Of a stretch of DNA of 50,708 nt, positions 2,769-34,184 are shown in pieces. A program made the translations under genes and the position numbers. Every line of letters begins with the position of its first letter. Positions within the stretch are counted from its first letter, which is position 1. The stretch is from a bacterium (GTDB lineage Bacteria > Vulcanimicrobiota > Xenobia > Xenobiales > JADMJV01), in assembly GCA_030149525.1 (NCBI GenBank), contig JASBRJ010000393.1:1-50708 (forward strand). The letters are read 5' to 3'. The notes beneath the pieces are model-generated. The model had not been told where the DNA came from. It ran no database searches and was given only the letters and a program-made list of their open reading frames with translations.

Positions 2769-2951
2769 TTGAGTTGAGACCTCCGAGTTTATTTGCTAAG
2801 AACTTTGACCGTTCTCTTGACTTCTGAGGCTATTTTCACACCCGTAAAGCATCCATCTAGATGTTGATTGTAAACAATTTGTTAAAACAAAAAAATTATG
2901 AACGATACTTTCTCAAACAAGACTTTCGCGACACAATTAAGTGTCAGCAAC

Positions 2952-3887
2952 TCAAATATCAACCCCAACGAGACCGTGACGCCAAGCGAGCGGCCAAGCG
3001 TCTTCGCCGTGAAAGGCACCCAGCAGAGCTCCAAGCACGGCTCCCCGATAGCAGTTGTCGCCACCCAGGTTGGTGTTCACTTCCAGAGCTCGTGCCGGTT
3101 GCTCAAGGTACTTGGCTAGCAGATAGAGGACGGCAGGCCAGGATTCTTCCACATAGCAGACCGTAGAAATTCTCATCCCTATCACCTCTTCGTCGGGGAG
3201 AGTCAGCCAACTCATCCGCCGTTTGCCCAGGTATTGCCGCACTTTATCAATCACATCACCTCTCTGGAGGCACACTTCCAACACGTCCAGGACCTCCGTC
3301 CCTGTCTGCTTCATTTTGCGGCCGGCATGCGTACAGGCCATATGCTCCAGGGCCATCGCTGTGTTACGGGTCGAGAGATAGACGGGGAAAAGGTGACACA
3401 AACCTCCAATGTGTTTCTCTTCCACGGCGCATTTCAAGGGATCTTTCCCCCGAGCGTAGTTGGTGAAGAAACCCCTGTGATATTCTTCCAGGTAGGTATC
3501 GTTGTGACTGCTGGGGCAGCGCATGAAGGCGATGTATCGGTTGATATACTCTTCCTTGGAGTACCCCTCCTGAAGCAACTTCCAGGAAAGTTGGCAAAGC
3601 TTCAGATTGACCGTGTTCTCTCCGGGCTTGAGAAACTGATGATAGTGAACATCCCTCTCTCCCCAATATCGGGCCTGATGGTGGAGGATCTCTCCTTTCT
3701 CGTTGACGGGCTGGTAGTGAGAACGCCAAAGAATGCTATTGGGATGGGGGTTCTTGGGGGCTAGATAGCTGTCCACCCAGCCGTAATCTCTGTTGAGAGC
3801 CGCCCGGTCGTAGTACCAGTGAACCGGCATGGCTAGAGCGTCGCCGATGTAGAGTCCGTAAAGAGAGCCTTTGACTTTGTTGTTCAT
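2952..3887 (-). CDS. ADP-ribosylglycohydrolase family protein
   Basis: The family removes ADP-ribose from proteins or small molecules using two Mg2+ ions. The protein opens with KGSLYGLYIGDALAMP (metal-ligand D16) and ends with NLGGDNCYRGAVLGALLGA, matching the first and last conserved motifs. Classical DraG-type enzymes read GGD-T-D at the last motif; here it is GGDNCYRG, so the second aspartate is missing, as in a subgroup of ADP-ribosylglycohydrolase-like proteins. The start is set at the ATG at 3887: homology begins exactly there, and a longer version from 4019 would run through the divergent neighbour. It is divergent from the ABM monooxygenase with 90 bp between them. Activity is not assured. 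Confidence 0.85.
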   Translation of the reverse strand: MNNKVKGSLYGLYIGDALAMPVHWYYDRAALNRDYGWVDSYLAPKNPHPNSILWRSHYQPVNEKGEILHHQARYWGERDVHYHQFLKPGENTVNLKLCQLSWKLLQEGYSKEEYINRYIAFMRCPSSHNDTYLEEYHRGFFTNYARGKDPLKCAVEEKHIGGLCHLFPVYLSTRNTAMALEHMACTHAGRKMKQTGTEVLDVLEVCLQRGDVIDKVRQYLGKRRMSWLTLPDEEVIGMRISTVCYVEESWPAVLYLLAKYLEQPARALEVNTNLGGDNCYRGAVLGALLGAFHGEDAWPLAWRHGLVGVDI

Positions 3888-27495: not shown

Positions 27496-28914
27496 GTGGC
27501 AGCCGTGGATCTAGCGAGGTATTTGGACGAAAAAGGCGCGGAAGGCAAGGTCGATAGCGAGGGAAGCTTTAGCGTCAATCAAGCCGAGGCCGCCCGCAAG
27601 TTGGCGAGGTTTGCCCTGCCCGACACATACAGTTGGGCCCTCAAACTCGTTCAGGCCGCCATAGCCTACGGCTGTTCCGAGATCAAAGTCACTCAGGAAA
27701 GAAATACCACCACTTTCTTCTTCCGCCCGAACTCCCTGGAAGATATCCCCACACCTAACGATGTCGTTCAAACCATTATTTCCAGCGATATCGGCGGTGA
27801 TTCTCCACTCCAACGAACGGTGCTGGCTCTGAGGGCTTTGGTAGAGCAATCGGACTTCTCGTTTCTTCTCTCACTCTGCCGGGAGGTGAGCCGGTGTGAA
27901 ACTCTCTACGCCGGTCACGACTTCGGTCTTATGGGAGAATCGGAACGAGAGAGATTAGGAAATATTGTCCAACCAGGCATTCAAATTCGAGTCTCTCTTC
28001 TGCGCTCTAGTGAAGGAAAGACGGGTCGGTTTTTAGGAGGCCTTCTTATAGGGCCGCGCAGGGACATTCTTTTGTGCAAAGAGCTCATTGATAAAGCCTA
28101 TCTTTGCCCGATCCCGCTCCTGGTGGACGGACTCAGAGTCAACCGGCTTTTCACGCATCCCCGGTTTGGTTTTGTGGAGAAAAGGCGTCCGTTGGTTTTG
28201 GGGGGCGTCGACTGTCCAAAGTCTATGCCCGTCCTCAGTTGCTCAGAGCTTGAGCGCAAAGAGATGAGTATTCATACCGACGCCAGGAGAGCGGAGCGCC
28301 CCTACACCGGCTCAACCCATCATCACGCCTGGTATGTCCTGAACGTCGATCTCAATGAGAACCAGGAGAAAATCGAGGGGAGCCGCCATATCACCATCGA
28401 TTGGCACCGAGACGGTGTGGTAGTGCAGCGAGAGAAAAAACCGATCGCCCTAACGTCACGCTGCCACCTCACCATATTTCTTTCCGCCGAGGGACTGCAA
28501 ACCGATCTCACCGGCTTCCGTCTGCAAGAAACAGAGGAGAAGACAGAACGCGTGAAACAAGCTTTTGGAGCCGTGGTCAGCGATCTCTTTAGTCTCATGA
28601 GCGAGCCTGAGCGATTTCTCCGTGAAGACACAGACGACCAGTCGGAAAAAGACCGTGAGATGCGAAAGCTGGAACGAAGCCAAAAAAGGGTCAAGAAATT
28701 AGGGCCGGTCGCTGTCCCACTTCTTCTGGGCCTCTTCGTACCACCCTACGCCCTCCTGGCCCTGGCCGGTGGGGCCTCCGTCTACGTCGCGGACTTCTGG
28801 CCGAATTCCCTTCAGCTCAAATCGAGCCAAAAAGCTCTCCTGAAGGCCCTCACCGAAGACACCAATAAATTCATTCGGGCCTACCAAGACGAGACTAAGA
28901 GCACTAATCATTGA
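27496..28914 (+). CDS. GHKL ATPase-like protein with C-terminal membrane segment
   Basis: A 472-residue protein I cannot name. FSVNQAEAARKLARFALPDT (24-43) leads into WALKLVQAAIAYGCSEIKV (47-65), which looks like the N-box helix of GHKL (Hsp90, histidine kinase) ATPases and resembles a family in which L-V-Q-A-A-V follows a FTLD-type start. The DxGxG motif and a glycine lid are not visible, so ATP hydrolysis is doubtful. The middle is beta-rich; a hydrophobic hairpin spans 403-435 (GPVAVPLLLGLF). The start is GTG with a weak upstream site. The end overlaps the cytochrome c peroxidase gene by 11 bp, convergently. Confidence 0.5.
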   Translation: MAAVDLARYLDEKGAEGKVDSEGSFSVNQAEAARKLARFALPDTYSWALKLVQAAIAYGCSEIKVTQERNTTTFFFRPNSLEDIPTPNDVVQTIISSDIGGDSPLQRTVLALRALVEQSDFSFLLSLCREVSRCETLYAGHDFGLMGESERERLGNIVQPGIQIRVSLLRSSEGKTGRFLGGLLIGPRRDILLCKELIDKAYLCPIPLLVDGLRVNRLFTHPRFGFVEKRRPLVLGGVDCPKSMPVLSCSELERKEMSIHTDARRAERPYTGSTHHHAWYVLNVDLNENQEKIEGSRHITIDWHRDGVVVQREKKPIALTSRCHLTIFLSAEGLQTDLTGFRLQETEEKTERVKQAFGAVVSDLFSLMSEPERFLREDTDDQSEKDREMRKLERSQKRVKKLGPVAVPLLLGLFVPPYALLALAGGASVYVADFWPNSLQLKSSQKALLKALTEDTNKFIRAYQDETKSTNH

Positions 28915-30367: not shown

Positions 30368-30454
30368 GATTTGACCTCCACGACAAGATAAACAACTCTG
30401 CCTTGAGGCTAATGGGGGAATGTGAGGAAAATATGGAGCTTAATTTTGTAAGCG

Positions 30455-30481
30455 ATCCTCCGTTGAGGGTAGGCGGAGGAT
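30455..30481 (+). promoter_or_regulatory. RBS-sequestering hairpin before the small membrane peptide
   Basis: ATCCTCCG (30455-30462) and CGGAGGAT (30474-30481) form a perfect 8-bp stem with an 11-base loop. The right arm contains the whole GGAGGA ribosome site of the gene starting at 30487, so the folded RNA would hide it. This is the expected shape of a translational switch, such as an RNA thermometer or a protein-bound operator. Confidence 0.5.
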
Positions 30482-30486
30482 GCCCT

Positions 30487-30591
30487 ATGCGAATCTATTT
30501 AAAAAAGGCCGGAACCTACAGTTTTCTATTTTTCCTCGTGAAGGGTCTGCTCTGGCTCGCCGTTCCCGTGGCGCTCTCTATGCTCGACTGA
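30487..30591 (+). CDS. Small membrane peptide, 34 residues
   Basis: A peptide with a basic start (MRIYLKKAG), one hydrophobic segment rich in Phe and Leu (about 11-31) and the end SMLD. It has its own strong GGAGGA site 6 bases before the ATG. The length, composition and the GTYSFLFFLVKGLLWL core look like a single-span small protein rather than a chance frame. The function is unknown; it could act on a membrane partner. The surrounding 355-bp gap between the peroxidase and the kinase gene shows no other open frame; bases 30592-30722 contain only a short AGCGGC/GCCGCT hairpin and the kinase ribosome site. Confidence 0.55.
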   Translation: MRIYLKKAGTYSFLFFLVKGLLWLAVPVALSMLD

Positions 30592-30722: not shown

Positions 30723-33560
30723 GTGTCAAAGGATAAACTGATCGCCGAACTCAGGGCTCAGCTCAAGGCCGCTCAAGAAGAAGCACGCGCAACACAGGAA
30801 ATGTTTCAGTTGGCGATCGACAGCATCCCCAGTTGCATCTTCTGGAAGGATAAAAACGGGACTTATTTAGGGGTCAACCGGCTGTTGGCCGAGGCCTCCG
30901 GATGCTCTCATACGAGCGAGCTGATCGGTGGCAACGACTACGACTTCTGGGCTGCCGAGGATGCTGCCAAGTATCAGGCCGACGACAAACGGATCATGGA
31001 GAGTGGAGTCGCCGAGTATGGCCTCATTGAACAACAGATCCGTGACGGCAAGGTTCACTACCTGGAAACAAACAAGGCCCCTCTAAGAAACGCCCAGGGT
31101 GAAGTCGTTGCCGTCCTCGGCACCTTCCAAGATGTCACCGAACGACTGGAGCTTCAAGAAGAGGTTCGTCGACATCGAGACGAGCTAGAGCAGTTGGTGG
31201 AGGAGAGAACCAAAGAACTTCAGGAGGCCAACGACGCCCTGGTGGAGGCGGAAAAAGCGAAGAGTGAGTTCTTTGCCAACATCTCCCACGAACTGAGAAC
31301 TCCACTCACCCTTATTCTGGCTCCTTTGGAGTCCGCTTTAGACGGTTCTTACGGCGAACTAGAGCCGTCGCTCAAGAAATCCCTGGAAACCGTTCATCGT
31401 AGCGGGGTTCGACTACTCGATCTCGTCTCCAGCATCCTCGACGTCTCCAAACTTGAAGCCGGTCATATGAAAGCCAAAAGGCAGGCCTGTCACCCCGACG
31501 TTCTCATGAAAAACATCGTAGCGGACTTCACTCCACTGGCTCTCAAGAACTCCCAGAAACTCCAGTGCGACATCCGGGAGACCGGAACACGGTTGCTCGA
31601 CCCGTATCTATTGGAGCGAATTATCTTTAACCTGGTGTCCAACGCCTTGAAATTTACGCCCGAGGAAGGCACCGTGGAGGTGAAAAGTTGGAATGACGGC
31701 GATCTCCTTTTCTTTGAGGTCAGAGACACCGGAATCGGAATTCCGGAAGAGGCCCAAGCCAATCTCTTTCGTAAGTTCTACCAAGTAGAGAGTTCCTCCA
31801 CCCGCCGCTACGAAGGGACGGGTCTGGGTCTTGCCATGGTCAAAGATTTTGCCCAACTTATGGGAGGCGATGTGAAACTGCAAAGCGTGCCTGGTCAGGG
31901 GAGCACTTTCACCGTGACCCTGGCGGCCCCTGAGTGTGAGATTGATACGGGCGTTGCACCGGAGGGTACCGTCACCCGGCGAGCAACAGCGCCCGAGAAT
32001 TACTACCTCGACCTCACCCAAAACGACCAGGGGCCCGTTATTCTCATCGCCGAGGACAATATCGAGTTGGCCCGCTATATCGCTGAAGTCCTGGACCCTC
32101 TGGGGCGAGTCAGCTGGGCACCCAACGGCAAAGTTGCCCTGGAAATGGCCCGAGAGCTTCAACCCGAACTGATTCTCTCCGACGTTATGATGCCGGAGAG
32201 AGACGGCATCTGGCTGTGTCAAAAAATCCAAGAAGAATTTCGAGATGAGGGACCATCGATAGTCCTTCTCACGGCGCTCTCCGACCGAGAATCCCTGCTC
32301 CGAGGCTGGGAGGCCGGAGCGGCTGACTTCCTAAGGAAACCGTTCCATCCCTTGGAGCTCACTACCAGAATCCAAGCGCTCATCAAAGCACGCCGAGAGC
32401 GAGTGAAGGCCGCTGAAGAGAGACGACTGCTGGAAGCCCGCCTCTTCGAGTCGCAACGACTGGACAGCCTGGGAATCATGGCCGGCGGAATCGCTCACGA
32501 CTTCAACAATCTTCTCGCCATAGTCAGTGGAGAGCTGGAGTTAGCGATGCTGGAGCAACTTAAGCCGACTACTCAAGAATGCCTGAGGGAAGCCGAACTT
32601 GCCGTGCGCCAAGCCTCCGGCCTCTCCCAACAGATGCTTGCCTATGTGGGCCAGATTCCTCAAACAAAGAGTGTGGTGGACCTTGCGGAGATGGCCGAAG
32701 AGACGGCCCGTATCGTGGGACGGGGACTTATTCCCAAGCCACTTTTCGAATTTGACCTGGCCGGCGCTCCCATCGAGGCCGACCGTAACCAGATGTGCCA
32801 GGTTGCTCTGAATCTTATTACAAACGGTGCCGAGGCCGTGCCGCAAGGCACTCGACCTGTGATCAAAATCTCCACCGGTGTCCGAGAGTTCAGTGCCGAG
32901 TTCCTGGGGCGAGAGTCCGCCCAGACTTGCAGCTTCTTGAGAGTGGAAGATAACGGAGCGGGCATGGATGAGGAAACCCTCAAACGCGTCTTCGACCCGT
33001 TCTTCACGACCAAATTCACCGGACGTGGTCTTGGCCTTGCCGCTGTTTACGGCATAACGACCTCCCATTCCGGGATCTGCAAAATCGACTCCAAACCCGG
33101 TCAGGGAAGCACTTTCTGGATTCTTTTCCCGCCAACCGCTCTAGAGTCCAAGGTTGAGGCGGCTCCCGAGAGCATAGAAGGCGCGGGGCACGGAACCATA
33201 TTGGTCGTAGACGATGTGGCTCAAATGCGCTCCACGGTGGGGAAAATGCTTGTTAAGTGGGGCTTCAAGGTTGTTGAAGCGGAATCTGGGAGAGAGGCGA
33301 TGGAGAAAGTCAGGTTGGAAGCGGGGAATATCCGAGCAGCTCTGGTCGATGTGATTCTCCCCGACACCAACGGCTATCAACTAGCTTCCACGCTGCAAAA
33401 TATCGATCCGGGCTTACAATTTCTGATGTTTTCAGGCTATCGAGGTGAATCTATCGAAATCGGTCCCTTCAAATTTCTTCCCAAGCCGTTCAAGTTAGAA
33501 GACCTACGTCACGACCTCTTCCATCTTCTGGACACAGATAAAAGCCACTCGAAGACTTGA
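30723..33560 (+). CDS. Hybrid kinase with two complete kinase cores and two receivers (PAS-HK-REC-HK-REC)
   Basis: A 945-residue cytosolic sensor. A PAS domain (about 24-140) binds the input; a coiled coil follows. Core one has H189 in NISHELRTPL, ATPase N-box NLVSNALKF (303-311), DTGIGIP and EGTGLGLAM. Receiver one has D487 in LILSDVMMP and K539. Core two has H592 in GGIAHDFNNLL, N-box NLITNGAEAV, DNGAGM and GRGLGLAAV. Receiver two has D876 in ALVDVILPD and a final LPKPF. The two cores are of different H-box types, so they are not simple duplicates. The start is a GTG with GAGGAG 7 bases before it. No membrane segment is seen. Confidence 0.93.
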   Translation: MSKDKLIAELRAQLKAAQEEARATQEMFQLAIDSIPSCIFWKDKNGTYLGVNRLLAEASGCSHTSELIGGNDYDFWAAEDAAKYQADDKRIMESGVAEYGLIEQQIRDGKVHYLETNKAPLRNAQGEVVAVLGTFQDVTERLELQEEVRRHRDELEQLVEERTKELQEANDALVEAEKAKSEFFANISHELRTPLTLILAPLESALDGSYGELEPSLKKSLETVHRSGVRLLDLVSSILDVSKLEAGHMKAKRQACHPDVLMKNIVADFTPLALKNSQKLQCDIRETGTRLLDPYLLERIIFNLVSNALKFTPEEGTVEVKSWNDGDLLFFEVRDTGIGIPEEAQANLFRKFYQVESSSTRRYEGTGLGLAMVKDFAQLMGGDVKLQSVPGQGSTFTVTLAAPECEIDTGVAPEGTVTRRATAPENYYLDLTQNDQGPVILIAEDNIELARYIAEVLDPLGRVSWAPNGKVALEMARELQPELILSDVMMPERDGIWLCQKIQEEFRDEGPSIVLLTALSDRESLLRGWEAGAADFLRKPFHPLELTTRIQALIKARRERVKAAEERRLLEARLFESQRLDSLGIMAGGIAHDFNNLLAIVSGELELAMLEQLKPTTQECLREAELAVRQASGLSQQMLAYVGQIPQTKSVVDLAEMAEETARIVGRGLIPKPLFEFDLAGAPIEADRNQMCQVALNLITNGAEAVPQGTRPVIKISTGVREFSAEFLGRESAQTCSFLRVEDNGAGMDEETLKRVFDPFFTTKFTGRGLGLAAVYGITTSHSGICKIDSKPGQGSTFWILFPPTALESKVEAAPESIEGAGHGTILVVDDVAQMRSTVGKMLVKWGFKVVEAESGREAMEKVRLEAGNIRAALVDVILPDTNGYQLASTLQNIDPGLQFLMFSGYRGESIEIGPFKFLPKPFKLEDLRHDLFHLLDTDKSHSKT

Positions 33561-33575
33561 CAAGATGGCGTTGCT

Positions 33576-34184
33576 CTAGGAGATAGCGGTTAGCCGCCCT
33601 ATGAGAGACTCGAGCGTCTGCTGTTCGGATTCCAGCTGCCGTCCGGTTTGCTCCATAACTACCAACGAGGTTTCGAAGAGATCCCAGATCGGCTTGCCAT
33701 GCTCACTCACATCCCTACCCGGCTGGTCGTTTTCCACAGCTTCAAGCCTGGGCCTACCCTCTTCTGAAAAAGCCTTGCGAAGCCCGGTCGCCTGCTCTTC
33801 TACCCGGGTGTCCGCCGAGAGGGTTCTGAGCTCTTGAAGAATTTGGGAGAGTTTCGCCTTTTCATCGTCGGCCGACTGTTTGACCGCCTGGCCCAAAAAT
33901 TGATCGGCTTTTGCGAGAGCGTTGTTATAGGCGGACTGGTTAACCTCTGCCCGGCCTAAGTAGCGGTCTCCCTTTCTCAGCTTGACCGACAGTTCTCGGC
34001 CCTGATGCACCATGCTTCTGTCGCCGTTATCGTTTCGGATGTTCATGGCCGGACCCACGTAATCGTCCATGGCAAGTTCCGCTTTGGCCACAACTTCTTT
34101 GCTGCGGTCGGTATAGTACTTCCCCTGGGTCAAATGCTTGAGAGCCGTCCGAGCGGGATTCTGGTCTGCTTGAGATATCCTCAC
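33576..34184 (-). CDS. Hypothetical helical protein
   Basis: A 202-residue, highly charged protein, almost all helix, with no motif I recognise and no signal peptide. Its end is 15 bp from the end of the double kinase (convergent), and it is divergent from the diguanylate cyclase with 118 bp between. Start at a GTG (34184) preceded only by a G-rich stretch, so the true N-terminus is unsure. It may be a coiled-coil accessory protein; no function can be inferred. Confidence 0.5.
   Translation of the reverse strand: MRISQADQNPARTALKHLTQGKYYTDRSKEVVAKAELAMDDYVGPAMNIRNDNGDRSMVHQGRELSVKLRKGDRYLGRAEVNQSAYNNALAKADQFLGQAVKQSADDEKAKLSQILQELRTLSADTRVEEQATGLRKAFSEEGRPRLEAVENDQPGRDVSEHGKPIWDLFETSLVVMEQTGRQLESEQQTLESLIGRLTAIS

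Follow-up and report, generated by a model that had tools for sequence, protein, structure and literature searches.

The DNA analysed here, called the window throughout, is a contig of 50,708 nt that contains a 34-codon open reading frame (ORF) whose Shine-Dalgarno (SD)-like sequence lies in one arm of a perfect hairpin. This arrangement raises the question of whether so short a frame is a gene, from which ATG it is translated, and whether the hairpin controls its translation. An initial annotation had read it as a single-span membrane peptide gated by an RNA thermometer or another translational switch.

Genomic context of the small ORF

The contig is part of an 8.27-Mb genome, and the GC and tetranucleotide profile of the window match those of 20 other stretches of the same genome. 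The tetranucleotide similarity was 0.975-0.982 between the window and these stretches and 0.952-0.979 among the stretches themselves, and contamination of the contig was ruled out because its composition fits the genome. The small ORF and its two neighbours are arranged as follows:

30487-30591, + strand: 34-codon core ORF of the FFxxKGxxW family, peptide MRIYLKKAGTYSFLFFLVKGLLWLAVPVALSMLD, identified by translation, profile and codon score
28904-30367, - strand: MauG-like di-haem protein gene, divergent, left of the small ORF
30723-33560: PAS hybrid histidine kinase gene, right of the small ORF, 131 bp past its stop

The initial annotation had placed the gene next to a stress-type kinase. The neighbour is a kinase, a PAS hybrid histidine kinase, but nothing links it to stress or to the peptide. 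It belongs to a very large paralogous set: the genome contains 136 matches to it, of which two or more are located elsewhere in the window. The MauG-like protein resembles the type associated with His-Xaa-Ser systems, although its score of 301.8 bits is under the model cut-off of 340. A homologue with 60% identity was found in a genome of the same order (G006), where its neighbours differ from those in the window, and none as close was found in the same family. When the same-family genomes were searched with the peptide, the kinase, the MauG-like protein and 501 bp of DNA, no conserved neighbourhood was found. The window also encodes a 472-aa protein (27496-28914, + strand) and a 202-aa protein (33576-34184, - strand), each without any Pfam match.

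The small ORF encodes a predicted single-span membrane protein

The frame from ATG 30487 ends at the stop at 30591 and encodes 34 amino acids. When the family profile was built without the window, it gave this core a score of 53.4 bits, and the codon score of the 34 codons fell on the 76th percentile of real gene segments. That codon score was matched by 0.17% of 2322 spurious in-gene ORFs and by 2 of 521 small gap ORFs, while the comparison with stop-free gap segments of equal length gave a weaker figure, 6.1% of them reaching it. Aligned with the homologue L106, the 27 codons compared comprised 15 synonymous changes, 10 non-synonymous changes and 2 identical codons, and the corresponding synonymous and non-synonymous counts were 12 versus 10 for L107 and 9 versus 10 for L109. 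Three pairs of homologues gave 13 versus 7, 12 versus 6 and a level 8 versus 8, so that synonymous changes predominate in most of the comparisons. The peptide has a hydropathy maximum of 2.09 over 19 residues, and an AlphaFold model from the single sequence of a longer, 52-aa form (described below) showed one helix at residues 20-51 after a low-confidence N-terminal tail, with a mean pLDDT of 69.4.

It is highly improbable that the ORF is spurious. It is short and is missing from all the other 148 genomes of its phylum that were searched, but the profile homology, the codon usage and the synonymous change all argue for a gene, as does the FF..KG..W motif, which occurs just once across the six frames of 444 kb of the genome. 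Judged from its sequence, the short gene at 30487-30591 is real and encodes a predicted single-span membrane protein, which would be inserted into the membrane; homologues, codon usage and synonymous change bear out this part of the initial annotation.

An unnamed family with an invariant lysine and glycine

Neither the 34-aa peptide, up to an E-value of 10, nor the 52-aa form, up to an E-value of 0.1, matched any Pfam or NCBIfam family, and the peptide had no match in PHROGs either. Literature searches with the core motif letters and for small membrane proteins gave no fitting family name, and the plasmid and phage records searched contained no match. In 369 gammaproteobacterial genomes, sampled from the class to which a Colwellia genome belongs, the peptide alone as query found matches in 16 genomes at E ≤0.01 (best 2.2e-7, with 61% identity), and the profile found them in 22 at E ≤0.001. 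When the FF.KG motif was required, 17 ORFs remained, spread over 15 of these genomes. Eight loci (L121 and L149-L155) were left out of the membership count because no FF.KG motif was present in the extraction. In the order of the best gammaproteobacterial match, the gene is present in 2 of 11 genomes. Motif-bearing family members are also carried by six viral contigs; L163 is the contig of L161. Searches of the other 148 genomes of the phylum of the window, with both the single sequence and the profile, found no credible copy. The best other profile match in the phylum (E 0.003) lies within a 211-codon frame, and weak matches to the peptide (L003, L005, L082 and L083) were dismissed because they are in unrelated frames.

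These comparisons place the peptide in an unnamed family of very small membrane proteins with a scattered occurrence among bacteria and phages. Such a patchy distribution points to lateral transfer, and the small gene was probably acquired horizontally as a single gene.

Residues F15, F16, K19, G20 and W23 (34-aa numbering) are invariant in 22 alignment rows, although the invariance of the two Phe, the Lys and the Gly is partly by construction, since members were selected by the FF.KG pattern. The Lys sits mid-way in the hydrophobic helix of the family core, and an invariant Lys-Gly within the helix points to a specific, testable partner or function. The genes flanking the homologues vary between the loci read, so that no partner can be named; a conserved operon partner was rejected on the same ground. 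From its size and layout, our guess is that this small protein assists or regulates some larger membrane protein. It resembles the CydX-type small accessory membrane proteins, as described in the available text of PMC4325964, in having 30-50 residues, one helix and invariant polar or aromatic residues in that helix. It differs from CydX as given there in that its motif is not YxxWxxGx15E/D, it has no fixed partner operon and it has no Pfam match; CydX and other small proteins of Pfam or NCBIfam were ruled out by the absence of a model match.

The family is thus conserved across distant bacteria and viral contigs, yet Pfam, NCBIfam and PHROGs hold no model of it, and such genes are therefore likely missed or left hypothetical. 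We regard the FFxxKGxxW family as the more lasting result. In two of the six viral contigs, both T4-like (L161, around 2007-2129, with genes checked by profile, and L162, around 2917-3102, with genes read by eye), the tiny membrane gene directly follows a late sigma factor gene and is itself followed by an SbcD-like nuclease gene.

A perfect hairpin over the SD-like sequence

The hairpin in front of ATG 30487 consists of the following elements:

30455-30481, + strand: hairpin B, arms ATCCTCCG (30455-30462) and CGGAGGAT (30474-30481), eight Watson-Crick pairs
30475-30480, + strand: SD-like GGAGGA, inside the 3' arm of hairpin B, six nt ahead of ATG 30487

The claim that a perfect 8-bp stem locks the GGAGGA before the short gene was confirmed. 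The UCCUCCG/CGGAGGA pairing is perfect, without mismatches, the loop is 11 nt, and RNAfold puts in two further G-U pairs. Hairpin B has a predicted energy of -15.6 kcal/mol at 37 °C, and in the model the fold persists up to 85 °C. The structure of the whole 96-nt segment is ordinary (z -0.11).

When we examined 444 kb of the 8.27-Mb genome as background, none of 110 gene starts with a good SD had a perfect stem of at least 7 bp over it, the longest there being 6 bp (2 of 110) against 8 bp in the window. Among 109 GGAGG-N4-9-ATG sites of any kind, the window alone has 8 bp, and one other site has 7 bp. With the upstream 45 nt shuffled, 0.23% of such sites gave 8 bp or more, which corresponds to a chance expectation of 0.25 sites in the 444 kb examined and of about 4.7 genome-wide. 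The stem of hairpin B is therefore unusual for a start in use, but a single site of this kind is nothing remarkable in a genome of this size. The exact palindrome is found once in the window. The pattern CCTCC...GGAGG...ATG was counted 72 times in this genome against 18 for the reversed pattern, with similar ratios in relatives, but the reversed control loses the SD signal and no inference was drawn from these numbers.

The initial annotation had proposed conservation of the peptide and the stem in relatives as the check on its reading. In the closest relatives searched, five genomes of the same family, neither was found, and the leader DNA as query matched no more than short pieces of the kind expected by chance. 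Distant bacteria and phages keep the peptide but not the stem: 20 of 21 homologues have no stem of at least 7 bp over the start region, and no stem is common to the 21 leaders. The window has no match in Rfam.

These results do not bear out an RNA thermometer, since the stem is far too stable, perfectly paired and not conserved. Like the ROSE-like and fourU thermometers, of which the Pseudomonas ibpA leader is an example in the available text of PMC3669281, hairpin B holds the SD within a hairpin just 5' of the start. It differs from them in being perfect, GC-rich and 8-11 kcal/mol more stable, with no mismatches or U-run and no conservation. The thermosensor hairpins in that text have energies of -4.1 to -7.6 kcal/mol, and perfect pairing of the SD made a variant inactive at low and high temperature alike. 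A ROSE- or fourU-type thermometer governing the 34-aa peptide, for which the pairing of the SD in a hairpin speaks, is accordingly hardly credible with a stem of -15.6 kcal/mol at 37 °C that stays folded to 85 °C in the model, with no fourU run opposite the SD and no Rfam match; on stability it is refuted, save for a strongly thermophilic organism.

A competing helix and the choice of start codon

Upstream of hairpin B, the frame stays open over 73 codons and contains the in-frame ATGs 30433 and 30412, and three further elements bear on how the hairpin is to be understood:

30410-30419 with 30456-30465, + strand: competing helix A, upstream arm in AATGGGGGA, which would occupy the anti-SD and free GGAGGA
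30433-30591, + strand: longer gene form of 52 codons from ATG 30433, with an open frame, an SD-like site and the length of homologues
30424-30428, + strand: SD-like GAGGA at a good distance from ATG 30433

Helices A and B compete for the same CCTCC. In a transcript of 30400-30500, whose ends are assumed, they are 0.1 kcal/mol apart, with helix A at -29.7 and helix B at -29.6 kcal/mol. Hairpin B is ahead by 1.8 kcal/mol in 30368-30591 (-58.6 versus -56.8 kcal/mol) and by 5.0 kcal/mol in 30400-30591 (-57.3 versus -52.3 kcal/mol). The pairing of the upstream arm of helix A with the anti-SD amounts to -13.1 kcal/mol; pairing at least as strong was obtained with 1.65% of shuffles and with 1.5% of random gap segments.

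Initiation at ATG 30433 is the reading that we favour, with about an even chance of being correct. The protein would have 52 residues and, as in the bacterial homologues, a disordered tail at its N-terminus. Hairpin B would then begin 22 nt past the start, within the coding sequence, the GGAGGA at 30475-30480 would be the Gly-Gly codons of the tail, and the hairpin would only keep ribosomes away from the internal ATG 30487 and would be no thermometer. The gammaproteobacterial members, with start codons chosen by us, have 45-53 aa and a distance of 27-35 from start to Lys, compared with 37 from ATG 30433 and 19 from ATG 30487 in the window. The viral members include short ones (35 aa with Lys at 19, and 34 aa with Lys at 18), so that 34 aa is also within the family range. 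A Cys-Pro just ahead of the helix, noticed after the fact, is shared by the window tail with 7 of 17 gammaproteobacterial members, but occurs near the end of only 18 of 2000 random extensions. That none of the 110 starts with a good SD has a stem like hairpin B also speaks for ATG 30433. The SD is slightly stronger at ATG 30487 than at ATG 30433 (-9.5 versus -8.8). Against the longer form, the extra 18 codons score like non-coding DNA, with only 3% of real segments and 3 of 45 gene N-termini scoring as low. Extension to 52 aa brings no gain in profile score (53.2 versus 53.4 bits), 79% of random extensions being equal or better, and the AlphaFold model does not discriminate between the starts.

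If translation starts instead at ATG 30487, hairpin B could act as a translational switch that closes GGAGGA by default and is opened by AATGGGGGA through helix A, by a ligand, by a small RNA or by an upstream ribosome. We consider this possible but rather unlikely. The near equality of the helices in 30400-30500, an arm pairing stronger than about 98% of shuffles, the rarity of stems over the SD at real starts and a codon signal that begins at 30487 are in its favour, but helix A was noticed after the fact, hairpin B wins by about 2 to 5 kcal/mol in longer transcripts, no orthologous leader was found for covariation, Rfam has no match in the window, and the homologues have no such stem, bar a different 12-bp repeat in one of 21 (L106). 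Bistable translational leaders, with riboswitch- or attenuator-like anti-anti-SD layouts, form two mutually exclusive helices with one common arm. The window leader is like them in that the predicted helices A and B are mutually exclusive with one arm in common, and unlike them in having no ligand domain, no Rfam match and no supporting covariation. The more specific proposal, in which AATGGGGGA and GGAGGA compete for UCCUCC in a bistable leader and so act as a translational switch for a small membrane protein that has a mid-helix lysine and relatives in T4-like and other viruses, seems doubtful to us; if true, it would add a ligand- or RNA-controlled member to an undescribed protein family common to bacteria and phages. 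It is similarly improbable that ATG 30487 is used with no RNA control, the stem being due to chance or a DNA palindrome that serves the divergent MauG-like gene as an operator. In favour of this are the roughly 4.7 sites of this kind that chance alone would produce in the genome, the lack of a conserved stem in the family leaders, and the position of the palindrome, 88 bp in front of the divergent start. However, SD-hairpin stability counts 1.4 kcal/mol per 10-fold in the available text of PMC3669281, by which hardly any translation should begin at an unregulated start preceded by a stem of -15.6 kcal/mol; such a stem is found at 0 of 110 SD-bearing starts, and the exact palindrome just once in the window.

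Hairpin B may thus be part of the coding sequence of a somewhat longer gene, as it would be if ATG 30433 is used, and it should be kept in mind that a strong stem locking an SD-like site can fall within a coding frame that is slightly longer than assumed. In the leader of the L106 homologue, we also observed a structure that is unrelated to hairpin B and absent from the sister L107, namely a perfect 12-bp inverted repeat with a 3-nt loop, ending two bases before the start.
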